DNA of 64,000 nt from Pseudomonadota bacterium (GTDB taxonomy: Bacteria > Pseudomonadota > Gammaproteobacteria > Steroidobacterales > MnTg04): NCBI GenBank assembly GCA_022572885.1, contig JACZVC010000010.1, positions 1 through 64,000 of the forward strand. Reading direction: 5' to 3'. Within the stretch, counting starts at the first letter, position 1, and each line of letters starts with the position of its first letter. Shown in pieces: positions 42,959 through 59,946 of the stretch. Position numbers and translations under genes: made by a program. A model generated the notes under the pieces. It worked only from the letters and a program-made list of their open reading frames with translations, searched no databases and was not told the DNA's origin.

Positions 42959-43034
42959 CAGCCAAGCCTTGCGCAGCAAGGCGAGACGACGCCGGCTTCG
43001 CCGGCGCCCGCAGGGTGAACTCGCGCAGCGAGTG
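42959..43034. repeat. 76-base element with three perfect hairpins in the tRNA T loop
   Basis: Three stem-loops lie in a row: GCCTTGC/GCAAGGC (42966-42982, loop GCA), CGCCGGC/GCCGGCG (42990-43006, loop TTC) and ACTCGC/GCGAGT (43019-43033, loop GCA). The insert sits exactly between TTCG and AATC of the tRNA T loop. It has no open frame. It looks like a small non-autonomous palindromic element; the family is not known to me. Confidence 0.75.
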
Positions 43035-43090
43035 AATCTCATCCCTCCCTCTCCGCATCGGATGGTGCGGCGGTTGAGGGGAAACAGTTT

Positions 43091-43178
43091 GGAGAGGTGG
43101 CAGAGTGGTTGAATGCGGTGGTCTTGAAAACCATTAACGGTTTGTAGCCGTTCGGGGGTTCGAATCCCTCCCTCTCCG
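43091..43178 (+). tRNA. tRNA-Ser (anticodon UGA)
   Basis: The class II tRNA has acceptor GGAGAGG/CCTCTCC with discriminator G and an encoded CCA (43179-43181). The anticodon loop CTTGAAA gives UGA, there is a long serine-type variable arm (TTAACGGTTTGTAGCCGTT region), and the T loop TTCGAATCC is normal. It is the intact copy of a tandemly duplicated locus. Confidence 0.97.
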
Positions 43179-43202
43179 CCAATCTGCCTTTAATCCTTCC
43201 AT

Positions 43203-44282
43203 TTACCCGCAATCACCAGGCAACGCTGCCAACAATCGTTTCAATCCGTCGTCGTTTTCCGCACAAACGGTAATGTGTCCCAGCTTGCGTCCAGGCTGCG
43301 GCTGCTTGCTGTAAAGATGCAAATGGGCGCCTGGAATGGCCAGCACGGCAGCGATGTCCGGCAACTCCCCAATCAGATTTACCAACGCCGAGCGTGCCGT
43401 TGGTGCGGTGCTGCCCAGGGGCAGATCAAGAATCGCCCGCAGATGATTCTCGAATTGGCTGGTCACGGTTCCTTCGATCGTCCAGTGGCCCGAGTTGTGG
43501 ACGCGCGGCGCCATCTCGTTGACCAGGAGCCGCCCGTCGAGCTCAAAAAACTCGATTGCCAGGACACCTACATAGTCCAGGTGTTCGAGCAGGCGTGTTG
43601 CGTAATCTTCGGCCAACTCTTGCATGGGGTCGTCTTGCAGGCTGGTGGAAAGCCGCAAAATACCGGCCTCGTGTCGATTCTCCGTCAGTGGATAGAAGGC
43701 CATTTCTCCCGACACGCTCCTGACCGCAATAATGGAGATTTCCCGGGAAAAGAGGACGAATTCTTCCAGGATGGCCGCTACGCCGTTGAGGCCTTCCCAG
43801 ACAGCGCGCAGTTCAGCAGGATCGCGCAACAGCTGCTGACCCTTGCCATCATAACCGAGTGTCCGGGTCTTGAGGATTGCGGGCAGGCCCGTTTTCGCCA
43901 CGGCCTGTTGCAGATCATCCAGGCTATCCACGGGAATGAAGATCGCTGTATCGATACCCAACTCGTTGAACAGGGTTTTCTCATTCAGACGATCTCTGGC
44001 GGTAGCCAGCGCCAGTGGCGGAGGATAGACAGGCAATTTCCCGTTCAGATATTCCACGCTGCCGGCAGGCACGTTTTCAAACTCGTAGGTGATCGTGTCT
44101 GCCTTTTCGGCCAGGCGTTTCAATGCGGCTTTATCGTCGAAGGCGGCACACAAATGTTCGCCCATTGGCGTCGCGCAGGCATCAGCCGAGGGGCAAAGAA
44201 AAACAAACTCCAGCCCCAGCGGGTAACCCGCCAGCGCCAGCATGCGGGCAAGCTGCCCGCCGCCAAGTATTCCGATCTTCAT
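43203..44282 (-). CDS. purK: N5-carboxyaminoimidazole ribonucleotide synthase PurK
   Basis: This ATP-grasp enzyme of purine synthesis converts AIR, bicarbonate and ATP to N5-CAIR, the substrate of PurE. The 359 residues start [23 protein letters not shown] and include the ATP-grasp motifs [34 protein letters not shown] and the metal site [24 protein letters not shown]. The order and length are normal. The ATG overlaps the purE stop by four bases, so the pair is translationally coupled. Confidence 0.97.
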
Positions 44283-44779
44283 TCACTGTCCCGCGGGTCA
44301 GGATGGTTCAGAACCCGTTCCGTCTGGCGCGCGCGATACGCTTTCAAAGCTGTGCGGATCTCTGCATGTTTGTTCCCCAGGATTGCCGCTGCCAGGAGCG
44401 CCGCATTGATAGCACCGGCGCGGCCTATGGATAAAGCGCCCACGGGTACACCGGCGGGCATCTGGGCGATAGACAGCAACGAGTCCATCCCGTTGAGAGC
44501 CTTTGACCGCACCGGCACGCCGAGCACCGGCAAAACGGTCTTCGCAGCGGTCATGCCCGGCAGGTGAGCCGCGCCACCGGCGCCGGCGATAATAATTTCG
44601 ATGCCGCGTTCCTCTGCCGTTTCGGCATAGCGGAACAGTTTGTCGGGAGTGCGGTGGGCTGAAACCACCTCGGTCTCGAAGGGCACCATCAGCTCTTCCA
44701 GCGTTTCCGTGGTGTGGCGCATCGTCTCCCAGTCGGAAGCAGAACCCATGATGATGCCGACCAGTGGTTGCATTGGCAT
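44279..44779 (-). CDS. purE: N5-CAIR mutase PurE
   Basis: It moves the carboxyl group of N5-CAIR to carbon 4, giving CAIR. From ATG 44779 the protein has 166 residues with [14 protein letters not shown] near the start, [11 protein letters not shown] containing the key His, and the [11 protein letters not shown] loop. Only the class I (bacterial) pattern is seen. A GGGAGA ribosome binding site lies 8 bases before this ATG. An upstream ATG at 44794 is less well placed, and the longer open frame to 45034 runs through a PII-like remnant. It overlaps purK. Confidence 0.97.
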
Positions 44780-44799
44780 GTTGATTTCTCCCATCGTTG

Positions 44800-44981
44800 T
44801 CAGAATTTTTCCGGACGCACAACCGACACGTCGTTCAGAAACAAAATCATGGCGTAGTCGCTGTAAAAGTTTTCTCCAAGGCGTAGCCATGGGCGCCCAT
44901 GCGGGCGAAATCTTCGACCAGGTTATGCTCCGTCGCGGTTTCCGTGCTGATCGTGTGCAGTTTACGGGTGTCAGTATGCAT
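44800..44981 (-). pseudogene. Broken PII-like signalling protein gene
   Basis: From ATG 44981 (after GGGGGAC) the frame encodes about 35 residues with PII-like character: [29 protein letters not shown], matching the first strand and helix of PII proteins. It then stops at 44847. In another frame the sequence [20 protein letters not shown] followed by RPEKF and a stop (44800) matches the C-terminal strand of the same family (DVEVxRPEKF). About 40 residues between them, including the T-loop and much of the nucleotide site, are missing. The best reading is an internal deletion with frameshift. It is a remnant on the strand of purE, 21 bases upstream of it. Confidence 0.7.
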
Positions 44982-45193
44982 AATGTCGTCCCCCGAGGCG
45001 ATGGATCAGGTTGGCAAGAAAGACGCCGCCACATGCTCCATCTCTATACAACGGCAGCCTCGCTCCCGGCCGGGGTGGAGGGCGGATTCTCCACCAGAAC
45101 ATACTGGCAGCGCAAGGCGTCCTGAACTTAAATCGACTATATTTATCTCACCTAGCAAGCAACCTTTCCGATCATTTTACCCGGTGAATTCCA
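44982..45193. other. Intergenic region between PII-like remnant and TPR gene
   Basis: About 210 bases without a recognisable gene. The part next to 45194 is locally AT-rich (AACTTAAATCGACTATATTTATC, about 45125-45147) and may contain the promoter of the plus-strand gene. No strong hexamers were found. Confidence 0.35.
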
Positions 45194-46108
45194 ATGGCCG
45201 CTAAATTTTCAAAACCGCTACTCCTGGGCGCACTCCTTGCGTTTACTCTTGCCGCCAATGCCCAGGACCTGGCCGACCTGGCCAATCAAAGCTATCAGGC
45301 CAAGGAGTGGCAGGCAGCGGTCGATGCCTATGAGACTTTAATCCTGGACGCCCAATCCAATGGCCAATATCTGTACAGGCTGGGAGTTTCGCGCAGACAC
45401 CTCGGGCAGTTTCAAGCCGCGGTGAATGCCTTGGAAAAAGCGAGACAGGCGGGTATTCCCGGTAGGTTTGTGGACCTCGAAATGGCCAGGTTGTTTACCG
45501 AGCGGAAGGATCTGGTAATGGCGGTGGAGAAACTGCAGCTGGCCGGCGAACAGGGCTTTGGCAATGTTCTGCAGATCGAGCAGGACCCGGAGTTGGCAGC
45601 GCTGGTTGGCAGTGACGGTTTCGATGAGGCCATGCAGGTGATCAAGAAAAATTCCGCGCCCTGCGAGTACGTGGCAAGGGCCAGGGATTTCGATTTCTGG
45701 ATTGGCGAGTGGGAAGTCTATGACCGGGACCGAACCGTCAAGTACGGCGAAAACACGATCACCCGCAAGGACCGCGGTTGTTACTTGTATGAGCAATGGG
45801 TTAGCGCGGCAGGCAACCCGGGCAGCAGCATGAATTACTATGACCCGGGACAGCAGCGCTGGCGGCAACACTGGGTAGGCGCAGGCGGCAGTATCATCGA
45901 TATTTATGGCGGCCTGGTGGATGGCAGCATGGTACTGAAGGGGCGTATTTACAGCGTCAACCCACCATCGGATTCAGCTTTCAGGGGAACCTGGACGCCA
46001 CTGGCGGATGGCCGGGTCCGCCAGTTCCTCGAACAATCCAAAGACAACGGCAAAACCTGGGTTCCATGGTTCGATGGCTATTACCAGCGCAAGCCCGAAA
46101 GCCGGTGA
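45194..46108 (+). CDS. Secreted TPR protein with C-terminal DUF1579-like domain
   Basis: This 304-residue exported protein has a signal peptide (about 1-23, ANA-QDL). Two or three TPR-like helical repeats follow (about 25-120: LANQSYQAKEWQAAVDAYETLI, YLYRLGVSRRHLGQFQAAVNALEKA, VDLEMARLFTERKDLVMAVEKLQLA). The C-terminal domain (about 165-300) begins DFDFWIGEWEVYD, the entry typical of DUF1579-like lipocalin-type barrels, and is rich in Trp and Tyr. The TPR part probably binds a protein partner and the barrel a small molecule. The exact function is unknown. A short spacer separates it from the next small membrane protein gene on the same strand. Confidence 0.75.
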   Translation: MAAKFSKPLLLGALLAFTLAANAQDLADLANQSYQAKEWQAAVDAYETLILDAQSNGQYLYRLGVSRRHLGQFQAAVNALEKARQAGIPGRFVDLEMARLFTERKDLVMAVEKLQLAGEQGFGNVLQIEQDPELAALVGSDGFDEAMQVIKKNSAPCEYVARARDFDFWIGEWEVYDRDRTVKYGENTITRKDRGCYLYEQWVSAAGNPGSSMNYYDPGQQRWRQHWVGAGGSIIDIYGGLVDGSMVLKGRIYSVNPPSDSAFRGTWTPLADGRVRQFLEQSKDNGKTWVPWFDGYYQRKPESR

Positions 46109-46170
46109 CATCGGTGCTGTGAGGCTGCCATAATCGATATGGACTCCACTTAGGGATGTAAACGCAGACC

Positions 46171-46458
46171 ATGACCCCCCGGTACAGAATCTCATATCGC
46201 AAACCCGGCCCGGTTGCCCAGCTCGTCAGTTTTATCACCGGTATTTTGGCGCTGGGTCTTGCGGCTTTTCTGGGGATTTTCATCTTGGTGGTGCTGGTCG
46301 GTCTGATCGTTATCGGATCGGCGGTATTTGCCATGCGCCTGTGGTGGATCAAGCGGAAAATAGAACAGGCGGTGAGGGACGGACGATCGCCTGGCGATGT
46401 CGTGCATGCCGAGTATATGGTGATCGAGGAACGGAAAACCGATTGGCCGGAGGTGTGA
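46171..46458 (+). CDS. Small two-helix membrane protein, unknown function
   Basis: The 95-residue protein starts with a basic segment (MTPRYRISYRKPG) followed by a long hydrophobic region (about 15-57) that can form two membrane helices separated by a short turn. A cytoplasmic tail with RLWWIKRKIEQAVRDG and an acidic end (EYMVIEERKTDWPEV) completes it. No known family was recognised. It lies 62 bases after the TPR gene and 36 before the histidine phosphatase gene, likely in one transcript. Confidence 0.65.
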   Translation: MTPRYRISYRKPGPVAQLVSFITGILALGLAAFLGIFILVVLVGLIVIGSAVFAMRLWWIKRKIEQAVRDGRSPGDVVHAEYMVIEERKTDWPEV

Positions 46459-46494
46459 ATTCGGCAGACGGCCAGGCCCACAGAGGGAAAAAGA

Positions 46495-47091
46495 TTGAAA
46501 AAAATACACAGGACATTGCGCCGCCGGCCGTTGTTTACGCCACTGATCATGCCGGTTATGGGATTCGTCCTGATGGCGCTGGCGATCGCCTGGTTTTTCG
46601 ATTCGCGGGCGACGACGGCCGTATTCATAGTGCGCCACGCCGAAAAAGCATCGATGCCCGTCGATGACCCTGGGCTGAGTGATCTCGGCAGGGAGAGGGC
46701 GGAGGAGCTGGCCCGTGTCATGGCAATGTCGAACGTCAACAACGGCCCGGATCATATCTTCGTTTCCCAGTTTCGGCGCTCGTTGGGAACCGTTGAACCG
46801 CTGATTCGAGATACCGGTCTGCCGGTCAGCGAATACCGGGCGGAAGACTCGGCCGCGCTGGTCGATGAACTGCTGGACAATTACCGCGGCCAGACGGTTC
46901 TCATCGTCGCGCACAGCAATACCGTGGCCGAGATCATCGAGCTTTTGGGTGGCAAGGTGCCGGCGCAGGAAATGACCGAGCAAGACTATGATGATTTGTA
47001 CGTGGTTGGTATTCCGCGTTTTGGGCGGCGGCAAACCCTGCGCTTCAAATACGGTCCAGTAAATAACTCGAATAACCCGATAGAACAATAG
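46495..47091 (+). CDS. Membrane-anchored histidine phosphatase (SixA/phosphoglycerate mutase-like)
   Basis: The protein of 198 residues starts at TTG 46495 and has one N-terminal membrane helix (about 15-34, LFTPLIMPVMGFVLMALAIAWFF). The histidine phosphatase domain begins with the RHG-type motif FIVRHAEKAS carrying the nucleophilic His. A second catalytic His is in VLIVAHSNTVAEII, and an Arg in VSQFRRSLGTVEPL is also conserved. The domain probably faces the periplasm. SixA removes phosphate from histidine of phosphotransfer proteins, but secreted members act on other phosphates, so the substrate is open. It converges with trmH across an AT-rich gap. Confidence 0.85.
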   Translation: MKKIHRTLRRRPLFTPLIMPVMGFVLMALAIAWFFDSRATTAVFIVRHAEKASMPVDDPGLSDLGRERAEELARVMAMSNVNNGPDHIFVSQFRRSLGTVEPLIRDTGLPVSEYRAEDSAALVDELLDNYRGQTVLIVAHSNTVAEIIELLGGKVPAQEMTEQDYDDLYVVGIPRFGRRQTLRFKYGPVNNSNNPIEQ

Positions 47092-47118
47092 CTTACATAA
47101 CTATATTAAAGTTAAGTA

Positions 47119-47778
47119 TTAACTAAAGGGATTTTCCAGCAGCTGTCCATCGGCGGACAACGCCGGATACATCAGCTTCTTTTCCCGGCAGCGGCGCGCG
47201 ATATCCGGATAGGCCCATTCAAAAAGAGTTTGCTGCCAGGTTTTTGGATCGAGGCGGCTGTTGTCATACATGCCGGCAGCTTTGCGCTGCTTCATGGCCT
47301 CGTACAAGATCAATGCGGTGGCCACCGAAACGTTCAACGACTTTGTATGTCCTTGCATCGGAATCTTCAGGTGGGCATCGGCGAGGCGAGCGGCTTCGGC
47401 ACTGACGCCAATCAGCTCCGAGCCTAACAACAGAGCGGTTGGCACAGTGTAGTCGATTTCCCGAAAGTCCCTGGCCTGAGCGGACAGGTGCGCCGCGAGC
47501 ACCTGGAAACCGTCATTTTTCAGGCAGCCGATGGCGCTGCCTATATCGGGATGCATCACGATCGATACCCATTTGCGTGATCCTGCGGAAGTCAGGTGAT
47601 GCCGAGGCAAATTGGGTGAATTTGACACGACATGGGCCTGGAAAACGCCTACCGCATCGCAACTGCGAATAATTGCCGCCAGGTTATGCGACTTGTGCAC
47701 GTTCTCCGACAATATCGTCAGATCCGGTTGCCGGCGCGCCAGCACACTTTTTAGCGTTTGGAATCGATCAGGAGTCAT
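47119..47778 (-). CDS. trmH: tRNA (guanosine-18-2'-O)-methyltransferase TrmH
   Basis: This SPOUT enzyme methylates the ribose of G18 in the D loop of tRNA. The 219 residues begin MTPDRFQTLKSVLARRQPDLTIL, as in TrmH. They contain motif 1 (HNLAAIIRSCDAVGV, with the catalytic Arg), motif 2 (ALLLGSELIGVSAEA) and motif 3 (IPMQGHTKSLNVSVATALILYEAM) that make the trefoil knot. Motif 2 reads GSELIGVS rather than the common GxExxGLS with a charged residue, a small deviation. It stands apart from the spoT/recG locus that hosts trmH in E. coli. Confidence 0.93.
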   Translation of the reverse strand: MTPDRFQTLKSVLARRQPDLTILSENVHKSHNLAAIIRSCDAVGVFQAHVVSNSPNLPRHHLTSAGSRKWVSIVMHPDIGSAIGCLKNDGFQVLAAHLSAQARDFREIDYTVPTALLLGSELIGVSAEAARLADAHLKIPMQGHTKSLNVSVATALILYEAMKQRKAAGMYDNSRLDPKTWQQTLFEWAYPDIARRCREKKLMYPALSADGQLLENPFS

Positions 47779-47804
47779 GCTTCAAGAAGGCGGCTGCCCA
47801 CTCA

Positions 47805-48257
47805 TCATGCCTGCAAAGCGATGGCCTGCCGTATGAAATCTTCGTGTTGCCCGATGCGCAGGTCTGCCAGAACCGCATCGCGAATAATGCCGTCCTGGTC
47901 TATCAAGAAAGTGGCGCGGCGAACGCCGAAACCCAGCGGGCCGTTGACGCCATAATCCACAATCACTTCCTTTTCAACATCGGACAACAGCAGGAATGGC
48001 AGGTGATACTTATCGGCGAAGCGTTGGTGACTTTCCTTTCCCTGAGGGCTGATGCCCGCAACCTGAAGCCCTGCGGCAACAAGTTCGTCATGCAGATCGC
48101 GAATGGTGCATGCCTCCTTGGTGCAACCAGGCGTAAAATCCGCTGGATAGAAATACAGAACCACCGGGCCGTTTTCCAGCAACCCCTGTAAGGACACGGG
48201 CTTGCCAGTCTGGTCGGGAAGCGTGAATGGTGGCGCTCGTTCGCTAATTTCCAGCAT
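47805..48257 (-). CDS. bcp: Thioredoxin-dependent peroxiredoxin (Bcp/PrxQ type)
   Basis: It reduces hydrogen and organic peroxides using thioredoxin. The 150-residue protein has the PrxQ pattern: APPFTLPDQTGKPVSL near the N-terminus and peroxidatic Cys45 in FTPGCTKEAC. The resolving Cys50 lies five residues on, with the Arg in the conserved later segment. E. coli BCP has the same Cys spacing. It lies 26 bases upstream of trmH on the same strand, so they may be co-transcribed. Thioredoxin reductase is encoded at 32 kb. Confidence 0.94.
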   Translation of the reverse strand: MLEISERAPPFTLPDQTGKPVSLQGLLENGPVVLYFYPADFTPGCTKEACTIRDLHDELVAAGLQVAGISPQGKESHQRFADKYHLPFLLLSDVEKEVIVDYGVNGPLGFGVRRATFLIDQDGIIRDAVLADLRIGQHEDFIRQAIALQA

Positions 48258-48301
48258 ATTGCCTATTCTAGTCCGCTCGTACCGACATGCAATACTTGGC
48301 C

Positions 48302-48330
48302 TTTCCGGCCATCACCGCCGGTGATAGAAT
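48302..48330 (+). promoter_or_regulatory. Candidate tRNA-Ala promoter
   Basis: A TAGAAT hexamer (about 48325-48330) lies about 13 bases before the tRNA, with TTTCCG 17 bases upstream as a weak -35 box. The spacer contains a short inverted repeat CACCG/CGGTG. Confidence 0.35.
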
Positions 48331-48342
48331 GCGCCGCCTGAT

Positions 48343-48418
48343 GGGGCCGTAGCTCAGCTGGGAGAGCGCTGCGTTCGCAATGCAGAGGTCGGCGGTTCGA
48401 TCCCGCTCGGCTCCACCA
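48343..48418 (+). tRNA. tRNA-Ala (anticodon CGC)
   Basis: Acceptor GGGGCCG/CGGCTCC, D arm with AGCTCAGCTGGGAGAGC and anticodon loop TTCGCAA (CGC) are present. The T arm GGCGGTTCGATCCCGCT, discriminator A and encoded CCA (48416-48418) complete the molecule. All arms fold. Confidence 0.97.
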
Positions 48419-48426
48419 GTTTTGAT

Positions 48427-48454
48427 AAAATCCGGGATAGCCCGGATTTTTTTT
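48427..48454 (+). terminator. Rho-independent terminator after tRNA-Ala
   Basis: The stem AAATCCGGG (48428-48436) / CCCGGATTT (48441-48449) has loop ATAG and is followed by a run of T to 48454. It lies 9 bases after the tRNA CCA. Confidence 0.92.
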
Positions 48455-48563
48455 GCTTGCATGCAGCCTGCATTGGATATGATTGGCAGACGAGGGGAGC
48501 GTCCACAGCGCGCAGCGCTGCTGCCGCAGAACCTGATAAAATTTACCGGAAGCAAGACTGTTC

Positions 48564-48640
48564 GCCCCGGTAGCTCAGTTGGATAGAGCGTCCGCCTCCT
48601 AAGCGGAAGGTCCCAGGTTCGAATCCTGGTCGGGGCACCA
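48564..48640 (+). tRNA. tRNA-Arg (anticodon CCU)
   Basis: Acceptor GCCCCGG/TCGGGGC, a D arm with AGCTCAGTTGGATAGAGC and anticodon stem TCCGC/GCGGA with loop CTCCTAA give anticodon CCU. The T arm CCAGGTTCGAATCCTGG and encoded CCA (48638-48640) are normal. The minus-strand accessory-looking module begins 63 bases later, and tRNA-Arg 3' ends are common integration sites. Confidence 0.97.
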
Positions 48641-48702
48641 TAACCGTCTGTTTTTATTTTATTTTTTGCTCAGCATTCAGCCGCGTCACCGGCGGAACAA
48701 TA

Positions 48703-49968
48703 TCAGTTCCCGAATCGAAGCCGGATGCTCAGCTGAAACTGCTTTTCGGTCCGTGTTGTATCGAGGCCATAGTATTGCCAGCTGAAACGGTCTGTTTTGA
48801 TGCTCAATGACTCGGCGCCAATGGACACCTTATCGGAGTATTCGTAGAAATAAGCTAGCGTCCAGGCATCGCCGTCCTCGGAATTATCGTCCTGCAGCGT
48901 CTGATCGTTGTCCGTGACTGCAAACTTGTCGTACCGTAATGAAAATCGATGGCGATTATAGGCCCGGGTTAACATCAGGTACATACTGTCGAAATCAGCG
49001 TCGAGATCGCCGATACCATTCTCAACGGAACCCATTACTGTTGAGCCCGTCATCCACTGAAACAACAATTCCCAGTCACCCGGCAAAACAGCATGGGCAG
49101 CAATATGTTGAAACTTCGTCGCCCATGCGTACTGTCCACCTTCATCCGCCGTCGGATCGGCACGATTGTCATAATGCATTGCGCGAATCAGTAATTGCTG
49201 ATTGAAACTCCATTCAACGTTGACGTAATAGCCGGCTCGGTTGTCGATTTCGAGGAACGGCGCTACGTAAGGGTCCTGGTCGTCAAATAAGCTGTCGGGC
49301 TGAATCACTGGCAATGGCGGCAACGGCAGCTTATCGCCAAAACGGCTTTGGCGATCATGCACCGACCAGCCTTTCCAGGCCAGCAACGAGCCCGTCGGAT
49401 CGTTACCGTAAAAAATCGCTCCTTGCAGCCTGATGGTGTGGGCGCCGCCAAACATCGCGGGCCTACGAGATACGGACAATTCTGCACCGACCGTGCGAAG
49501 TTCCTCTGCAACCCAGGTGTTAATTGCCGAATAACTCATCGAATATGGGCTGGTCCATCCGGCCGTTATATTCTCGAGCGATATGCGAGGGTAAAACAAA
49601 CCGAGTTTCAAGCGATAACGGTTTTCGGACTGAGGTACCGGTCGCCACTCGACATAGGCCTCGGTAAAATCGACTGTTGACCCTATATCATCATCATAGC
49701 CTTCGAGTACGGTGTGTGCCTTGAACGTATCCGCGAGCTGAATTTCGAAGTCCGCAAACGCCCGGCTAATCATCAGACCATCATTACTATCGTCGTAGCG
49801 CAACTTGCCGACGAATCCCTCCGTCCAGGAGGTATAACCGGATGAATTGATAAAACTGATGTCAATGCCCGCACGCAATTTGTACGGGTCCGGCGCCTCC
49901 GCCGCGTTGATCGCTTGCACGGCGAAAACCAAAAAGATCGCCGCAATCAGTATCAGTACTCTGACCAT
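48703..49968 (-). CDS. Outer-membrane beta-barrel (porin-like) protein
   Basis: The 421-residue precursor has a signal peptide (about 1-22, VQAINAA-EAPD). The mature sequence alternates polar and hydrophobic residues with many aromatic ones, as expected for a barrel of roughly 14-18 strands. Recognisable strands include YRLKLGLFYPRISLENITAGW, HTIRLQGAIFYG, YYVNVEWSFNQQLLIRAMHYD, HRFSLRYDKFAV, AWTLAYFYEYSDKVSIGAESL and FQLSIRLRF near the end. No named porin family is evident. The start overlaps the end of the cupredoxin gene by 16 bases, so the two are co-translated; the barrel may be the outer-membrane route for the ligand handled by that module. Confidence 0.78.
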   Translation of the reverse strand: MVRVLILIAAIFLVFAVQAINAAEAPDPYKLRAGIDISFINSSGYTSWTEGFVGKLRYDDSNDGLMISRAFADFEIQLADTFKAHTVLEGYDDDIGSTVDFTEAYVEWRPVPQSENRYRLKLGLFYPRISLENITAGWTSPYSMSYSAINTWVAEELRTVGAELSVSRRPAMFGGAHTIRLQGAIFYGNDPTGSLLAWKGWSVHDRQSRFGDKLPLPPLPVIQPDSLFDDQDPYVAPFLEIDNRAGYYVNVEWSFNQQLLIRAMHYDNRADPTADEGGQYAWATKFQHIAAHAVLPGDWELLFQWMTGSTVMGSVENGIGDLDADFDSMYLMLTRAYNRHRFSLRYDKFAVTDNDQTLQDDNSEDGDAWTLAYFYEYSDKVSIGAESLSIKTDRFSWQYYGLDTTRTEKQFQLSIRLRFGN

Positions 49969-50657
49969 GGCGTGCTTCTCGATTGTCTGTCATGCGGCGG
50001 ATTGAGTTTCTTCACCAAGTGAAATGTGACTTCGGGTTCCGGGCTACCTGGCGTGACCACTGTTTTGGACAGGGCCTCATCTCTATCGCGAATGCGGGGG
50101 CTCCAGATATTGATTTCGTAATCTTGCGGGTTGTCCAACGACAAAGATGCCTTGCCGTTCTCGTCTGTCTTGGCTACCGCTACGCTATCAACGACCAATA
50201 TGTACCCGAGCATATGGTCGTGAATATTGCATCCGAGCGTAACTATTCCGCTGTGTTCGAACGTGACCGGGGGGTGTTGCTCGCCGTGGTACATCGGTAA
50301 CAAGAATTTGTTGGGGTGTGAAAAAGAATAGACGTGATGAGCGACCGTGTCGCTGTTCGGGAATTCTACGGCTGTCCCTGTTTGTACAACAAGCACGTGC
50401 GGCACGAACTGCTTGTCTATCTGGTCCATGACGGTGTTGGCGGTGGGGGCTGGCAAATCGTTTTGTCCGTCCAGCCTCATCGCATACACCGCAACATCAG
50501 CGACAGGCCGCCCCTCCCTGTCAATAACGAAAATGTTGACGTCGCTACCGAATGAAGAGGTTGCGATAAACATCAAAACGAATAACCCGATCATTCGAAC
50601 TGGATTTCGTCTGATCTGATCGTCTGACCGAAGTTCTGTAAGTCGCGAAAACGCCAT
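49953..50657 (-). CDS. Periplasmic cupredoxin-like protein (methylamine-utilisation-type annotation)
   Basis: The protein of 234 residues has a signal peptide whose hydrophobic core is about 22-37 (ending FGS-DVN). If it starts at the internal ATG (50594) it has 213 residues. A plastocyanin-like beta-sandwich follows. Candidate type 1 copper ligands are His107 or His108 in NSDTVAHHVYS, Cys143 in LGCNIHDHM, His146 or His148, and Met149. Homologues often read CNIHDWM; here Trp is His. The C-terminal part (KTDENGKASLSLDN, EINIWSPRI) resembles carboxypeptidase-regulatory-like beta domains that often follow in this family. Despite the usual automatic name there is no methylamine dehydrogenase nearby. 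It pairs with a barrel protein and is divergent from a c-di-GMP enzyme. Confidence 0.82.
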   Translation of the reverse strand: MAFSRLTELRSDDQIRRNPVRMIGLFVLMFIATSSFGSDVNIFVIDREGRPVADVAVYAMRLDGQNDLPAPTANTVMDQIDKQFVPHVLVVQTGTAVEFPNSDTVAHHVYSFSHPNKFLLPMYHGEQHPPVTFEHSGIVTLGCNIHDHMLGYILVVDSVAVAKTDENGKASLSLDNPQDYEINIWSPRIRDRDEALSKTVVTPGSPEPEVTFHLVKKLNPPHDRQSRSTPWSEY

Positions 50658-50878
50658 GTCCGTTCCAAGCGATTCCTACCCATCGCCGAGTATACGGTCG
50701 AACCGGGCAAGCTAACCGTGACCCACCGCACATTCTATTTAACAAAATCCACTTAATATCTCTAAGCGGTTGATATTTGACGACTATGCACGGTAATGGG
50801 ACCGCGCAGAGGGCTCGTCACGACGGTGCTGGCGATGGATGCTCTTGCACTCGTCTGAGAAAACGGAATACGCGCCGA

Positions 50879-53266
50879 ATGAAGATTCGTACCAGCTTCC
50901 GCGGAAAATTATTGCTGCTGACAATCCTGCCGTTGGCGGTTGCGCAGATCGTGACCCTTTTCAACGTAATACAGGTCGTGGAAGAGGACGTCGAGCGCCG
51001 CGCCCGTGAGTCGCTCATCATTGGTGGTGCGGTTGTTAATGAATTCCTGAGAGGCCGGGGCGAGCAGATAGAGGCGAGTGTCAAGGTCTTGGCCGCTGAC
51101 TTCGGTCTCAAAGAAGCTGCCGCGACCGGGCACGCGGCAACTATTCAATCGGCCCTTAGCAATCATAGTCGGCGTATCGGGGCGGACATCGCCTTGTTGC
51201 TGGATCTCGATGGTACCAGTATCGCGAGCTCCAGTGGCATGACGCATGTTACTCGGAGTGACTTGTTGCGCCTCATTGAAAACGCACGCGAAAAATCCTC
51301 CGCGCAATCAACCGCAATATTCGATGGCGATACCTACCACACGTTCACAATGCCGGTCCGGGCACCTGTTGCTATGGCCTGGGTGGTGTTAGGTTTTCGA
51401 ATCGACACGCAACTCACGCAACGCATACGAGCATTGACCGGCCTTGAGGTCTCAATCGTATCAACGTCGAGTGGCGACGCCCGTACAATTGCGACGACCA
51501 GACACGCAGGCAGCACCACAAAATCCGAACCGGACTTTGTTGATCAGGGCACACCGCTGGACTCTATTTATATGGTCGACGAAGCGGGCCATGCCCGGTT
51601 GACGCTCAGTACGGCATTCGTCCGGACCAACAATGATGTGATCGTCGTACTCCAGCGCTCGCTGCAGGAGGCGATGACGCCGTACATCGAGGCCCGCAGC
51701 GGCCTGTTGGTTTTTGCCTTCGTCCTGTTGTTTGTCGTCTCAGTCGCGGTCGGCTGGGTTTCCGGAACTATTGCAAGACCGTTGCGGGCACTCACCGACG
51801 CAGCGCAGAAAATAATCTCGGGTGATTACGACATAAAACTCAATGTTTACACGGATGATGAGTTCGGCGAACTGGCAACGAGCTTTAACGAAATGCGGAC
51901 GGCAATCGCGGAGCGTGAAAAACGCATATCCCACCAGGCGCTCCATGACCCGTTGACTGGTCTGCCCAACCGGACAAAGGTGCTGCAAAGCCTGACCGGG
52001 GCAATCGAGCAAGCACGAAGCGCCAACACCAATATCACAGTGCTTGCGATCAGGCTGTCACGCATGAATGAAATCTCATCGACCCTGGGCCACCGCGCGA
52101 GCGACGAGATTATTGCACTCGCCGCAAAACACCTGCACGTAAACCTTGACCCTGGAGACACCCTCGGTCACGTGGGAACCAACGAGTTCATTCTGATCCT
52201 GCCTGATAACGGTATAGACGATGCAATGATTTACGCGGACCGGATCGAAAACATTCTTGGCGCCGGCGTTAAGCTTGGTCGCTTAAATATTGCGCTGCAG
52301 ACAGAGATCGGCATCTCCGGATTCCCGGATCACGGCAACAGCGCTGCAAACCTTCTACGTTATGCCTCGATAGCGAGAAACGAGGCCCAGCTTGGCCACG
52401 AGCGTGTGATGATTTATAAGGCGGGCCGCGAGGACCATTTCGTACGACAACTTCGAATCGTCAACGACCTTCGCGCCGCCCTGGAACACGATGAAATTCG
52501 CGTTCATTTCCAGCCGAAGATTTCGCTCCCGGATGGCGCAGTTTGCGGCGCGGAGGCGCTCGTGCGCTGGGAACATGCAGAACTCGGCTCGCTGAGCCCG
52601 GACGATTTCATCCCTGCGGCAGAGGAATCCGGCACTATTGTGCATCTCACGAGGTTCGTTCTGGCCACCGCAGTCAAACGGTGTCGTGAATGGCAGAATG
52701 CGGGACATTCGCTTCAGGTTTCGGTAAACATATCCTCCCGGGACCTCCGGGACGAGTACCTGCCTTACTACATCCTGCAATTGCTAAAAGAACAAGACAT
52801 TGCGGCGAACCGATTGACGCTCGAGATCACAGAGAACAGTATTATGCAGAACCTTTCTCATGCAATTTCGGTTCTCGAGTGTCTTCGCGACGTCGGTGTC
52901 CGGATTTCAATGGATGATTTCGGCACAGGTTATTCATCGCTCGCACAAATCAAAAATATGCCGCTGCATGAGCTGAAGATCGACAAATCATTCGTTATGA
53001 CTTTGATGAGCGATGAACAAAGCAGGGCAATCGTTCGAACGACGATCGAGCTTGCACACAACATGAACCTCAAAGTTGTCGCAGAGGGCGTCGAAGACGA
53101 ACAGACGCTGCGACAAATAAGCGACATGGGTTGCGAGGAGGCACAGGGTTATTTTGTGAGTAAGCCCGTGTCAGCCGATGGATTGCTGGACTGGCTGAAA
53201 AACCGGAAAGAAATATCCTACGGCACGCGCCGCAGGGCAAAGCGGGCGTTTGCGAAAAAAGCTTAA
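50879..53266 (+). CDS. CACHE-HAMP-GGDEF-EAL protein, probable c-di-GMP phosphodiesterase
   Basis: From ATG 50879 the protein has 795 residues. A membrane helix (about 11-30), a periplasmic double-CACHE-like sensor (about 35-268), a second helix (about 270-294) and HAMP (about 295-345) are followed by GGDEF (about 350-515) and EAL (about 535-780). The GGDEF signature is degraded to GTNEF, so cyclase activity is unlikely. The EAL domain keeps its key residues: EALVRW, the Asn in VNISSRDL, Glu in ITENSIM, DDFGTGYSS, Lys in KIDKSF and EGVED. It is therefore expected to hydrolyse c-di-GMP. The longer frame from 50777 uses a TTG and adds a non-homologous stretch. It is divergent from the cupredoxin/barrel pair, 221 bases away. 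Confidence 0.92.
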   Translation: MKIRTSFRGKLLLLTILPLAVAQIVTLFNVIQVVEEDVERRARESLIIGGAVVNEFLRGRGEQIEASVKVLAADFGLKEAAATGHAATIQSALSNHSRRIGADIALLLDLDGTSIASSSGMTHVTRSDLLRLIENAREKSSAQSTAIFDGDTYHTFTMPVRAPVAMAWVVLGFRIDTQLTQRIRALTGLEVSIVSTSSGDARTIATTRHAGSTTKSEPDFVDQGTPLDSIYMVDEAGHARLTLSTAFVRTNNDVIVVLQRSLQEAMTPYIEARSGLLVFAFVLLFVVSVAVGWVSGTIARPLRALTDAAQKIISGDYDIKLNVYTDDEFGELATSFNEMRTAIAEREKRISHQALHDPLTGLPNRTKVLQSLTGAIEQARSANTNITVLAIRLSRMNEISSTLGHRASDEIIALAAKHLHVNLDPGDTLGHVGTNEFILILPDNGIDDAMIYADRIENILGAGVKLGRLNIALQTEIGISGFPDHGNSAANLLRYASIARNEAQLGHERVMIYKAGREDHFVRQLRIVNDLRAALEHDEIRVHFQPKISLPDGAVCGAEALVRWEHAELGSLSPDDFIPAAEESGTIVHLTRFVLATAVKRCREWQNAGHSLQVSVNISSRDLRDEYLPYYILQLLKEQDIAANRLTLEITENSIMQNLSHAISVLECLRDVGVRISMDDFGTGYSSLAQIKNMPLHELKIDKSFVMTLMSDEQSRAIVRTTIELAHNMNLKVVAEGVEDEQTLRQISDMGCEEAQGYFVSKPVSADGLLDWLKNRKEISYGTRRRAKRAFAKKA

Positions 53267-53363
53267 GTATCCAAGCCTGTCACGAGTCGGATTTGCAGGC
53301 TTCTGTCATTATGTCGCTGCGGAAGAAGCACACTACTCCGTCGGGGTCTCAAGGTACCCTTTG

Positions 53364-55331
<1,968 letters not shown>

Positions 55332-55369
55332 TCGCGTCTCCGGGGTACGGGAAGAAGCGCCGAGACTAA

Positions 55370-55383
55370 CCTAATTGGCTGCG
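55370..55383. repeat. 14-bp direct repeat, left copy
   Basis: CCTAATTGGCTGCG here is repeated exactly at 56221-56234, on the other side of the small barrel gene. The flanking bases differ. In the right copy the motif is part of a hairpin; here it is not. Confidence 0.6.
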
Positions 55384-55421
55384 GACTCCCAGACCAGATA
55401 GCGCCTCTTTGCTGATAGGTA

Positions 55422-55451
55422 TAAAAAAAGCCCCTCGCCAGAGGGGCTTTA
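55422..55451 (-). terminator. Rho-independent terminator of the small barrel gene
   Basis: The stem AGCCCCTC (55429-55436) / GAGGGGCT (55441-55448) has loop GCCA. On the minus strand it is followed by a seven-T run, so it ends the transcript of the gene at 55479-56057. Confidence 0.9.
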
Positions 55452-55478
55452 CTGTTTTGCTTTTTTTCGGCAGTGGAA

Positions 55479-56057
55479 TTACTCCACATAAAACCTGCCG
55501 CCAATCCCGAACGTCGTAACGTCATTGCTGAAACTGATACCACCGGTAACCGCAAAGCTGTCGTTGAAGGAATACACGCCGCCGACATTAAAAGCGGTAT
55601 CGTCAGCACCCCCGCCCAGATCGACATAAGTAATCCCACCATTGAGCTCGAACTCGTTGCTCACCATGCTGCGCAATGAGACATCCAGGGCATAACCGTC
55701 TTCACGATTACTGCCAAAAAACCCCAAGTCTATTTCCGCACTGACATATGCGATACTCACATTGACATCGGTGGTGTCTGAAATGGCGCTCTTATAGCCG
55801 ATACCGACGTCGAAACTGTTGAGGTCCACGCCAGCATCGCCGATGCTTGAATAACCGGCAAACATGAAAATATTTTCGCCAACTTCGGCCGAACCGCTAA
55901 TACCAAAGCCATCAGCATCTCCGCCACCATCAAAGTCTGCATTGATATAGCCTCCTTCGATATAGGTGTAATCTGGCGAATCCGCCAAAACCGCGGTCGG
56001 AGCTAGCGCCAGCACCACGATCGCGCCATATCCAATCATTGCCTTGATAATTTTCAT
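55479..56057 (-). CDS. Small outer-membrane beta-barrel protein, unknown function
   Basis: The 192-residue precursor has a signal peptide (about 1-25, VLA-DSPDY) and an eight-strand-like barrel pattern: YTYIEGGYINADFD, GFGISGSAEVGENIFMFAGYSS, FDVGIGYKSAISDTTDVNVSIAYVSAEIDLG, FELNGGITYVDLGG, FNVGGVYSFNDSFAVTGGISFSN. It ends in FGIGGRFYVE. The mature protein is acidic and glycine-rich, like small OmpA/OmpW-type barrels. A ribosome binding site (AAGGATGA) precedes the ATG, and a hairpin TTCGC/GCGAA lies in the short leader. It is monocistronic with its own terminator. The function is unknown. Confidence 0.8.
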   Translation of the reverse strand: MKIIKAMIGYGAIVVLALAPTAVLADSPDYTYIEGGYINADFDGGGDADGFGISGSAEVGENIFMFAGYSSIGDAGVDLNSFDVGIGYKSAISDTTDVNVSIAYVSAEIDLGFFGSNREDGYALDVSLRSMVSNEFELNGGITYVDLGGGADDTAFNVGGVYSFNDSFAVTGGISFSNDVTTFGIGGRFYVE

Positions 56058-56412
56058 AACTCGTCATCCTTTTCGCTTTTTGCGAATGTAATAATCGTCC
56101 TTGTGAAACCTGAGCCCAAATATATGTTACAATTACCAAATAGGTATATTCTATATCAAAGTCTCTGGTTCGCGATACTTTCGATTCCGGAGCTTGTCTA
56201 AAGTTCGGAAACCGGCGCAGCCTAATTGGCTGCGCCTGAACCTAAGCTGAATCGATTTTGTGAGATATCCCGTCGACCAGATTTACACATTGGTCCAGCG
56301 CATGTGTGACGAACGGACCTAAATGCTTGATATTGCTCGCTCACACCAATTGCGGCGCGGATTTTGCATTAAACACAATGAGTGGCACAAGAGAATAACG
56401 AAAGTAGAAATT
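56058..56412. promoter_or_regulatory. Divergent intergenic region with AT-rich core and hairpin
   Basis: About 355 bases between two divergent genes. The part next to the barrel gene (56115-56160) is very AT-rich and probably holds its promoter, though no clear -35/-10 pair can be fixed. A perfect hairpin GGCGCAGCC (56214-56222) / GGCTGCGCC (56228-56236) with loop TAATT contains the right copy of the 14-bp repeat (56221-56234); without a T-run it is not an intrinsic terminator. An upstream in-frame ATG of the next gene at 56323 is not favoured. Confidence 0.5.
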
Positions 56413-56928
56413 ATGTCTAATTCACCTGGCAATCCGGATACTCGCGCGGCGGTTCTTGATTCGGGCGACCGCCCACCGGCCTGTGCGGCAAGCGACCGTC
56501 GTTTTATGCAGGATCGCCGGAAAAAAACCTGGTGGTCATTGTGTTATGGCGGCGTCCGCCCAAGGCGGAGATTTCATCGGCGCGATGCAGACAGTTTCAG
56601 TGGTCAAACGGACTGGCTGGACTCCGAATTGCTCTACCTGACCCTGGGAATACTGGCGCTGTGCACGGCCGATGCAATCATGACCTTGAATCTCCTGAGG
56701 ATTGGGGCTCACGAAGCCAATATTTTTATGGCGCACCTGATCGAAAAAGACGTGTTTCTTTTTGGAGCAACCAAAATGGCGCTGACGGGTCTGGGTCTCA
56801 TCCTGATGGTTATGCATGCCTCATTCCGGCTTTTTCGCGTGATCAGCGTGCAAAATATCCTGCGCATTTTCTTCTTTGCGTATTTGGCCCTGATCGGCTA
56901 CCAGGTCGTTCTCTACAGGTTCATTTGA
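56413..56928 (+). CDS. DUF5658-like membrane protein
   Basis: The protein of 171 residues starts at ATG 56413 (MSNSPGN). Its N-terminal half (about 1-70) is polar, arginine-rich and probably disordered (DRRFMQDRRKKTWW, RPRRRFHRRDAD). The C-terminal half carries three membrane helices (about 76-96, 114-134, 145-166). The segment ADAIMTLNLLRIGAHEANIFMA resembles the DxxxTLxLLxxGAxExNPxM pattern of DUF5658. The function is unknown. It precedes sucA by 135 bases on the same strand but has no evident link to the TCA cycle. Confidence 0.7.
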   Translation: MSNSPGNPDTRAAVLDSGDRPPACAASDRRFMQDRRKKTWWSLCYGGVRPRRRFHRRDADSFSGQTDWLDSELLYLTLGILALCTADAIMTLNLLRIGAHEANIFMAHLIEKDVFLFGATKMALTGLGLILMVMHASFRLFRVISVQNILRIFFFAYLALIGYQVVLYRFI

Positions 56929-57063
56929 TCGCTCGCTGACGCAGTCTTTGCCGAGAGTTTCCGGGCTGGCATTCGTTTCTTATTTTTCACGCTTGCGATA
57001 GAATGCGCGGCTCGCTCAAGCGAGCCCGTTTACCCGTACAAGCAACGACTTAGACGAAGAAAA

Positions 57064-59946
57064 ATGACCAGCGAGCTGGAAAAAAAATACCAGACTACGC
57101 CCCTGTCCGGGGGTAATGCGCCACTGGTCGAAGGCCTGTTCGAGCAGTTCCTCGCGGATCGTTCCTCGGTGCCCGGCCATTGGGCCGAATGGTTCGATCA
57201 GTTTGACGAAAACGGGCAGATACCGCGGCGGCCGATCGAAAAAGAACTGGCACGACAGGCATCCGCAACGCGGATATCCCAACTCACCCAGCCGCTTGCC
57301 ATGTCGGAGACACGTCAGGGCCTGGTATCCCGGCTAATTCAGGTTTACGCAGCCCGCGGGCACCTGGTCGCCGATCTCGATCCGCTGGGTTTGCTGCAGC
57401 GGCCGACCCCAAAGGTTCTCAAGCTCGAATATTTTGGCCTTGGAGAAGTCGATCTGGACCGGGTTTTCCAGCCCGAAGGCCTGGCCTCGGTTTCCGGCCC
57501 AATGGCGTTGAGAGACATTATCGATCTGTTGCAGAAAGTCTATTGCGGCAAGATAGGCGTCGAGTTTGCCCATGTGTCGCGGTCGGCTGAACGGCTCTGG
57601 CTGCAGAAGGAATACGAATTGGCGGTGGTTGGCCAAGAACTGAGCCGCGATGAAAAACGTGACGCCTTGTATCAGCTGACTGCGGCCGAAGGCATGGAGC
57701 GCTACCTGCATACACGGTTCGTCGGCCAGAAGCGGTTTTCGCTGGAAGGCGGTGAAAGCATGATCTTGCTGCTCGAGGACTTGATACAGCAAGGCGGTAC
57801 GACCGGCGTCAAGGAGTTTGTCATCGGCATGGCCCACCGCGGCCGGATCAACGTACTGGTCAACATCCTCGGCAAGGCGCCGGCCGAACTGTTTTCGGAA
57901 TTCGCAGGCGAGTATGACCTGGTGCAGCTAAAAGGCTCCGGCGACGTTAAATATCACAAGGGATTCTCAGCCGATATGCACACGCCGGGCGGCGATGTAC
58001 ATATCGCGCTGGCATTCAACCCCTCGCACCTGGAGATCGTTAACCCGGTCGTCGTCGGCTCGGTCAGAGCCAGACAGCAACGTCGTGGGGATGGAGACCA
58101 TCAACGAGTCGTACCGGTACTGATACATGGTGATGCGGCCTTCGCCGGCCAGGGCGTCGTGATGGAGACCTTGCAAATGTCCCAGGCGCGGGGATTCGCG
58201 GTGGGTGGAACCGTGCATATCGTGTGCAACAACCAGATTGGTTTCACGATCAGCAATCCGGCGGACGCCCGCTCGACGCTTTATTGCAGCGATGTCGCGA
58301 AAATGATCGAGGCGCCGGTTTTCCACGTCAACGCCGACGACCCCGAAGCGGTGATTCTGGTGACCCGGCTGGCGCTGTGTTACCGGCAGGAATTCGGCAA
58401 GGACGTCGTTATCGACCTGGTCTGCTATCGCCGCCTGGGGCATAACGAAGCGGATGAGCCGGCCGCAACCCAGCCGCAAATGTATGCGGCGATCAGAAAA
58501 CACCGGACCACAAGAGAATTGTACGCGGACCGCCTGGTTCGCGAGTCGGTGCTGACCAAAGCTGAAGCCGATCGAATGATCGAGCGGTACCGGCAAGACC
58601 TCGAAGAAGGCCACCCGCTGCCGCGAAGACTGTTGGCCCTGGTTGACAACGAGTTCATCGTTGACTGGAGCCGGTATCGAAATGGCGCCACCTCGCCAAC
58701 AGCAAAAACGGCTGTCAGCAAACGGCGGTTGCAAAAATATTCGGCCCGGCTACTCGATCTTCCCGCGCATTTTACCGTCCACCCCAGGGTACAGCGGATC
58801 CTGGACAGCCGCGGGAAAATGGCGGCCGGCGAACTGCCGATCGACTGGGGCTTCGCGGAAACCATTGCTTATGCGAGCCTGCTCGATGAAGGCTATGAAG
58901 TCAGGCTGACTGGCCAGGACAGCGCGCGCGGGACTTTCTTCCACCGCCACGCGGTGCTGCACAATCAAACGGACCAGGAAAGCTTTGTGCCGCTGGAAAA
59001 CCTGTCGGCCAGGCAGGGCAGGTTCACGATCACCGATTCCTTGCTGTCGGAAGAAGCGGTCATGGGCTTCGAGTATGGCTTTGCGACGACCGAGCCCAAT
59101 GCGCTGGTCATCTGGGAAGGGCAGTTTGGTGACTTTGCCAATGGCGCACAGGTGGTTATCGATCAGTTCATCTGCTCCGGCGAGGCGAAATGGGGCCGCC
59201 TGTGCGGGCTGACTCTGTTCCTTCCACATGGTTATGAAGGCCAGGGACCGGAGCATTCATCCGCGCGGCTCGAGCGGTTCCTGCAACTTTGTGCGGAGCG
59301 CAATATGCAGGTGTGCGTGCCATCCAATCCGGCACAAATGTTTCATATGCTGAGAAGGCAAATGATCAATCCGCAGCGCGTTCCGCTGATCGTCATGACT
59401 CCGAAAAGCCTGTTGCGGCACAAGTTGTCGGTTTCGACGATCGAAGATTTGTCCAGCGGAAGTTTTCAGACGGTAATCGATGATGCATATTCGCTCAGGC
59501 CAGATGCGGTCGAGCGGGTCGTTTTCTGCAGCGGCAAGGTTTATTACGATCTCATCGATGCGCGCAACGACCGGCACGTGGAAAACGTGGCAATCGTACG
59601 CATCGAGCAGCTTTATCCGTTCCCGGTGGCACAGTACGCGGCGGCTATCGCTGCCTGGCCGAAGGCCAGGGACATAGTCTGGTGCCAGGAAGAGCCAAAA
59701 AACCAGGGCGCCTGGTATCAAATCAGGCATCGTATGCTCGAACCACTCGATGGCGGCACACAAGTACTGTCGTATGCCGGGCCAAACGCGTCGGCGGCCC
59801 CGGCATCGGGTATATTTGCCCTGCACGTAAAACAGCAGCGGGCGCTGATTGCCGACGCCCTGATGCTGGTTGACAATCATGCCACCGCCAAATCAGCAAA
59901 ACGAACCCGTAAAAAACCGAGGACGGCCAGAAAAAAACATGATTAA
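57064..59946 (+). CDS. sucA: 2-oxoglutarate dehydrogenase E1 component
   Basis: This thiamine-diphosphate enzyme decarboxylates 2-oxoglutarate and passes the succinyl group to the lipoyl arm of SucB in the TCA cycle. The 960-residue protein has the E1o N-terminal region and the active-site motifs [11 protein letters not shown] and [12 protein letters not shown]. It also has [12 protein letters not shown] and [13 protein letters not shown], and the transketolase-like C-terminal half with [17 protein letters not shown]. The length is normal (about 930-960). The last 20 residues are lysine/arginine-rich ([18 protein letters not shown]), an unusual basic tail. The end overlaps sucB by eight bases. 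Confidence 0.97.

Follow-up and report, generated by a model that had tools for sequence, protein, structure and literature searches.

The YfiBNR system of Pseudomonas aeruginosa (PMC2837407, PMC4655355), which receives its signals in the periplasm, consists of an outer-membrane protein, a periplasmic protein and an inner-membrane enzyme of cyclic diguanylate (c-di-GMP) metabolism. In NspS-MbaA of Vibrio cholerae and Sinorhizobium meliloti (PMC8079147, PMC9993111), the input to a transmembrane GGDEF-EAL receptor comes from a periplasmic protein. Another paper reports that the P. aeruginosa PA14 GGDEF-EAL protein PA14_37690 binds copper directly through its CHASE4 domain (PMC13277305), which makes copper a plausible input for proteins of this class. 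Here, we analyzed a 64,000-nucleotide stretch of a Pseudomonadota bacterium (MnTg04; GCA_022572885.1, contig JACZVC010000010.1, positions 1 to 64,000; hereafter the window), which carries a three-gene module at 48703-53266. Like YfiBNR, it spans the envelope, but with a porin-like barrel, a blue-copper protein (cupredoxin) and an EAL phosphodiesterase, and its outputs vary by lineage. NspS binds polyamines, whereas the partner here is a cupredoxin, joined by an envelope third gene and by output swapping. Copper in PA14_37690 sits on the sensor domain itself, with no separate cupredoxin described in the available text (PMC13277305), whereas here the cupredoxin is a protein of its own; in both, the periplasmic side of a GGDEF-EAL protein would be linked to copper. 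Pfam and NCBIfam scans returned no YfiB or YfiR match, and the DgcN/YfiN model scored 87.5 bits against a cut-off of 325. We propose by analogy that the module works like YfiBNR or NspS-MbaA while being a member of neither. It is, with reasonable probability, a mobile transenvelope signalling cassette in which the cupredoxin serves as the periplasmic input subunit of a double Cache (dCache) receptor, the signal presumably being copper or redox state.

The cupredoxin-receptor association is far above chance. Cupredoxin relatives and their surrounding DNA were gathered by whole-genome searches, with samples drawn independently of gene neighbourhood, together with 80 named genome-collection loci (L169-L248), which are the best 80 matches rather than a random sample. 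Dereplication at 90% identity left 168 loci, 141 of them flanked on both sides by 2.5 kb or more, and a profile restricted to the dCache region served to detect receptors. A dCache receptor lies within 1.7 kb of the cupredoxin in 119 of the 141 loci, and just two dCache genes lie elsewhere across all 2.14 Mb of loci, while control windows ~5 kb away contain a sensor-family gene of any kind in 19 of 177 cases. Viewed from the receptor side, the 12 dCache matches that rank best in a set of 97 relatives all adjoin a cupredoxin. Gene arrangement varies, being divergent in the window and co-directional in most loci, so the linkage is not merely one inherited block. The original prediction had treated the three genes as one divergent module and staked this on their co-occurrence in other genomes; the linkage recurs across many genera and bears it out decisively. 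All three open reading frames were confirmed, as were the 16-nt overlap of the cupredoxin and barrel genes and the divergent orientation of the receptor gene:

48703-49968, minus strand: porin-like barrel gene, BAR family, 421 aa (open reading frame, AlphaFold2 and Foldseek)
49953-50657, minus strand: periplasmic cupredoxin gene, 234 aa (open reading frame, Pfam and fold match)
50594, minus strand: possible alternative cupredoxin start, M22
50337-50339, minus strand: cupredoxin His107, first copper ligand (homologue alignment)
50211-50231, minus strand: cupredoxin ligand loop CNIHDHM, with Cys143, His146 and Met149 (homologue alignment)
50658-50878, no strand: intergenic region between the divergent cupredoxin and phosphodiesterase genes (gene coordinates; no regulatory site noted)
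50879-53266, plus strand: receptor, dCache_3-HAMP-GGDEF-EAL, predicted c-di-GMP phosphodiesterase (Pfam)
51140-51175, plus strand: dCache signature T122-x2-S125-x3-N129-x3-R133, a candidate site for contact with the cupredoxin or for a ligand
52175-52189, plus strand: degenerate GGDEF motif, GTNEF
52553-52570, plus strand: EAL motif, EALVRW

The cupredoxin is recognized by fold more readily than by sequence. Its sequence matches are weak: the amicyanin model reaches E = 0.0093 at 16.3 bits, against the 110.2-bit cut-off of the amicyanin equivalog TIGR02657, the copper nitrite reductase NirK (6hbe, 0.0033) is the best hit of a second search, and the Pfam hits CarboxypepD_reg (7e-4) and Cupredoxin_1 (0.12) fall below cut-off. 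An AlphaFold2 model built from an alignment of 60 sequences, mostly relatives with 30-45% identity to the window protein, has a mean predicted local distance difference test (pLDDT) score of 87 and matches amicyanin (E = 1.6e-6), pseudoazurin and NirK in Foldseek at probability 1.00. The predicted protein contains a complete, essentially invariant His-Cys-His-Met type-1 copper site, with H107, H146 and M149 each present in 94/94 homologues and C143 in 93/94. It shares with amicyanin and pseudoazurin the fold and a C-x2-H-x2-M ligand loop of amicyanin spacing, but is only ~20% identical and has an additional CarboxypepD_reg-like β-sandwich segment C-terminal of the cupredoxin domain; those proteins neighbour a dehydrogenase or nitrite reductase, whereas this one has a signalling neighbourhood. 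The genome collection holds at least 596 relatives, the best 80 of which include Pseudomonas, Methylophilus, Pseudoalteromonas, Caballeronia, Aromatoleum, Sphingobium, Rokubacteria and Acidobacteria; none was found in the viral contigs searched. A gene for a di-haem cytochrome c peroxidase (CCP_MauG; L163:5684-6694) stands between the cupredoxin and a receptor of the histidine-kinase type, a hint of redox chemistry.

The receptor is composed of dCache_3 (PF14827; 1.6e-14, 54.5 bits against a gathering cut-off of 25.7), HAMP, GGDEF and EAL (1.4e-72) domains, all above curated Pfam cut-offs. The CACHE sensor originally predicted thus stands, refined to a double Cache domain of the dCache_3 family. 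Motif inspection and Pfam also confirmed the proposed dead GGDEF and intact EAL: the sequence reads GTNEF in place of GG(D/E)EF, GGDEF itself occurring in 38/103 relatives, and the EAL signature residues (EALVRW, N651, E683, D713-D714, K734, E769 and Q790) are present. The receptor is therefore likely, from its sequence, to be an active c-di-GMP phosphodiesterase with a regulatory GGDEF; its best NCBIfam match is the DibA phosphodiesterase, below that model's cut-off. The reading frame is open from a TTG at 50777, and the likelier start is the ATG at 50879, which gives a typical membrane-protein beginning, MKIRTSFRGKLLLLT.

Comparison of 133 paired receptors revealed four output types: 104 GGDEF-EAL, 18 class III cyclase, six histidine kinase and five Ser/Thr kinase. 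The output label changes at least seven times on the dCache tree and 11 times on the cupredoxin tree. The simplest reading is that cupredoxin and dCache form a constant input to which an exchangeable output module is attached. The original notion of a c-di-GMP signalling unit accordingly survives as to the module and fails as to c-di-GMP specificity, since the same cupredoxin-dCache input joins adenylate/guanylate cyclase, histidine-kinase and Ser/Thr-kinase outputs. The Cache-HAMP Ser/Thr kinases paired to a cupredoxin (L107:7314-9917, L108:4032-6725, L111:7181-9301, L112:4551-6674 and L166:4633-6693) have an unusual layout for a bacterial transmembrane kinase. Two loci (L129:4252-9847 and L132:1558-7200) have one cupredoxin gene flanked by two homologous dCache-GGDEF-EAL genes, suggestive of a receptor duplication. 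In two Pseudoalteromonas loci, a methyl-accepting chemotaxis gene directly follows the cupredoxin-barrel pair (L180:8941-10539 and L239:8962-10560); lacking a dCache match, these genes were not counted as an output.

A four-residue signature, T122-S125-N129-R133 (TSNR), marks the dCache domain of paired receptors. Among 104 GGDEF-EAL receptors, T122 is kept in 90, S125 in 94, N129 in 97 and R133 in all 104; the 18 cyclase receptors retain them in 18, 15, 16 and 18 cases, and most histidine-kinase receptors keep the motif. With their i, i+3, i+7, i+11 spacing, the four residues would line a single face of a helix, should the segment form one. None of seven dCache relatives from genomes without a detected cupredoxin has the full set. 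Eight genomes carry a cupredoxin without an adjacent receptor, and an unlinked receptor has the full set in four of them (G096, G570, G586 and G601) and part of it in three (G212, G441 and G816). The motif thus tracks cupredoxin presence even when the genes are unlinked, which argues, at the level of sequence, for functional coupling beyond gene order.

In the mechanism we favour, the cupredoxin would bind copper in its type-1 site, and copper occupancy or redox state would set its docking on the dCache segment bearing TSNR. Docking would be relayed via HAMP to the EAL domain and alter c-di-GMP hydrolysis, raising or lowering it, with the degenerate GGDEF probably playing only a regulatory part. 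The porin may supply copper or another ligand, or may anchor the cupredoxin at the outer membrane and titrate it there.

The barrel protein, to which the Pfam and NCBIfam scans assigned no family, was modelled by AlphaFold2 (pLDDT 88.7) as an outer-membrane porin fold of ~16 strands. Foldseek matched the model to VhChiP (5mdq, E = 7.5e-16), OmpT and OprP/OprO with template-modelling scores of ~0.5-0.65, which support a fold class, not a substrate. The barrel is a replaceable component of the module. At least one of three third-gene families, unrelated by the searches used, occurs in 113 of the 141 loci (BAR in 41, DUF3034 in 55 and a 297-aa family in 18), and two occur together only in L224. 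Before correction for relatedness, this mutual exclusion gives p = 5e-10 for BAR and DUF3034 and p = 6e-5 and 0.001 for the other two pairs. Outer-membrane barrels often end in an aromatic residue, and a C-terminal aromatic is found in 50/59 DUF3034 proteins and 22/25 members of the 297-aa family. DUF3034 is nearly always accompanied by a globin gene, and 28/47 globins carry a lipobox-like motif; this globin may be the heme-bearing part of the unit in the periplasm. L114:7651-8960 exemplifies this arrangement, as do ~55 other loci where DUF3034 and a small, often lipobox-bearing globin replace the barrel of the window. No DUF3034 or globin homologue is present at window positions 43001-57500, where the module has its BAR barrel instead.

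The whole cassette was recently transferred between lineages as one unit. Locus L169 aligns to exactly window positions 48665-53266, its flanks being unrelated to those of the window and its DNA identity 85.6%, while other chromosomal genes common to the two genomes, tRNAs apart, are 66-74% identical; the excess points to recent movement of the entire cassette. Two further features delimit the site:

48564-48640, plus strand: tRNA-Arg(CCT), flanking the insertion site, outside the module
48664-53266, no strand: three-gene cassette, the unit of transfer (alignments to L169, G004 and G003)

The congener G003 has the same tRNA-Arg site without the module: positions 48641-53356 are absent, and the 3′ end of an OPT transporter gene follows within ~75 bp of the tRNA. 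In the sister species G004, the alignment runs from 48664 onward and is preceded by a different 2 kb stretch after the tRNA. This stretch, between tRNA-Arg and module, is absent from the window and contains a cyclopropane-fatty-acyl-phospholipid-synthase-like open reading frame (L266:945-2072). The site differs again in G001, where it lies at contig ends; the tRNA-Arg/OPT interval is thus variable within the genus. A search for att-type direct repeats around the tRNA found none, no integrase was noted with the cassette, and odd base composition was rejected as a mark of it, its GC content of 0.53-0.55 being near that of the rest of the window. The original suggestion of a tRNA-adjacent accessory acquisition holds for the accessory character and recent transfer; the tRNA-Arg belongs to the insertion site in this genome, with other flanks elsewhere and no att repeats.

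Several observations weigh against the cupredoxin being an input subunit. Twenty-two of the 141 loci have no adjacent receptor, and the Ser/Thr-kinase receptors lack TSNR despite an adjacent cupredoxin, so either the contact differs there or the motif has another role. The seven cupredoxin-free relatives that serve as negatives are few and belong to one order. In favour of the reading, cupredoxin and dCache distance matrices correlate at r = 0.74 (maximum of 0.27 in 500 permutations), but this value is uncorrected for species descent. Within four genomes having two loci, cognate pairing fits clearly better than swapped pairing in G658 and G813, marginally in G186 and no better in G425. Finally, an invariant type-1 site suits electron transfer as well as it does sensing. 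Type-1 sites usually transfer electrons, and the cupredoxin could be the electron carrier of a periplasmic redox process involving the globin, a MauG-like peroxidase or other partners, with a co-located receptor whose output adjusts lifestyle without physical coupling. The globin of the DUF3034 loci and the CCP_MauG gene adjoining the cupredoxin in L163 fit such a role. We nevertheless judge it quite improbable: the window cassette has no redox enzyme, outputs as unlike as cyclase and kinases accompany the same cupredoxin, and the dCache motif follows a genomic cupredoxin even where the two are unlinked.

The cupredoxin might instead be a copper-carrying ligand-delivery or scaffold partner, the true signal being another small molecule that reaches dCache via the porin and the copper being structural or constitutive. 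In its favour, small-ligand binding is common among dCache domains, the TSNR residues might bind such a ligand instead of forming an interface, and a porin-like barrel or other envelope protein is present in 113/141 loci. This account appears unlikely, as the third-gene families are unrelated by the searches used, against a constant cupredoxin and copper site, and if the copper were purely structural, some lineages would be expected to have lost ligands, a pattern not seen among the 94 homologues. A copper homeostasis operon, with the porin importing copper, the cupredoxin storing or chaperoning it and the receptor sensing independently of them, without any particular tie, would fit the gene content and those loci with cupredoxin and barrel but no adjacent receptor. 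The receptor linkage in 119/141 loci, the globin added in DUF3034 loci and the absence of any noted copper ATPase or CopA/CopC/CopD-type gene from the module make this very improbable. Chance adjacency in this genome, already refuted by co-occurrence over many genera, has a negligible probability.

A literature search found no paper combining the genes of this module, in a coverage that mostly excludes subscription journals; the available text of an Fe-oxidiser genome paper names truncated globins and GGDEF/EAL proteins separately. The module is real, widespread and apparently undescribed. More tentatively, at somewhat short of even odds in our estimate, it represents a widespread, undescribed class of transmembrane receptor that depends obligately for its input on a separate periplasmic type-1 copper protein and in which a dCache-HAMP core is rewired to c-di-GMP hydrolysis, cyclic AMP or cyclic GMP synthesis, or histidine- or Ser/Thr-kinase output, the envelope part is exchangeable and the whole is mobile as a cassette. 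What most c-di-GMP enzymes respond to is, to our knowledge, not known, and for many uncharacterised GGDEF-EAL, cyclase and kinase receptors the module suggests a periplasmic partner and a signal that can be tested. The dCache motif provides a mutational handle, and DUF3034 and its lipoprotein-like globin gain a context. If the reading of the cupredoxin as an input subunit is true, this textbook fold would take on a new role, with a type-1 copper protein serving as a subunit of a sensor instead of carrying electrons.

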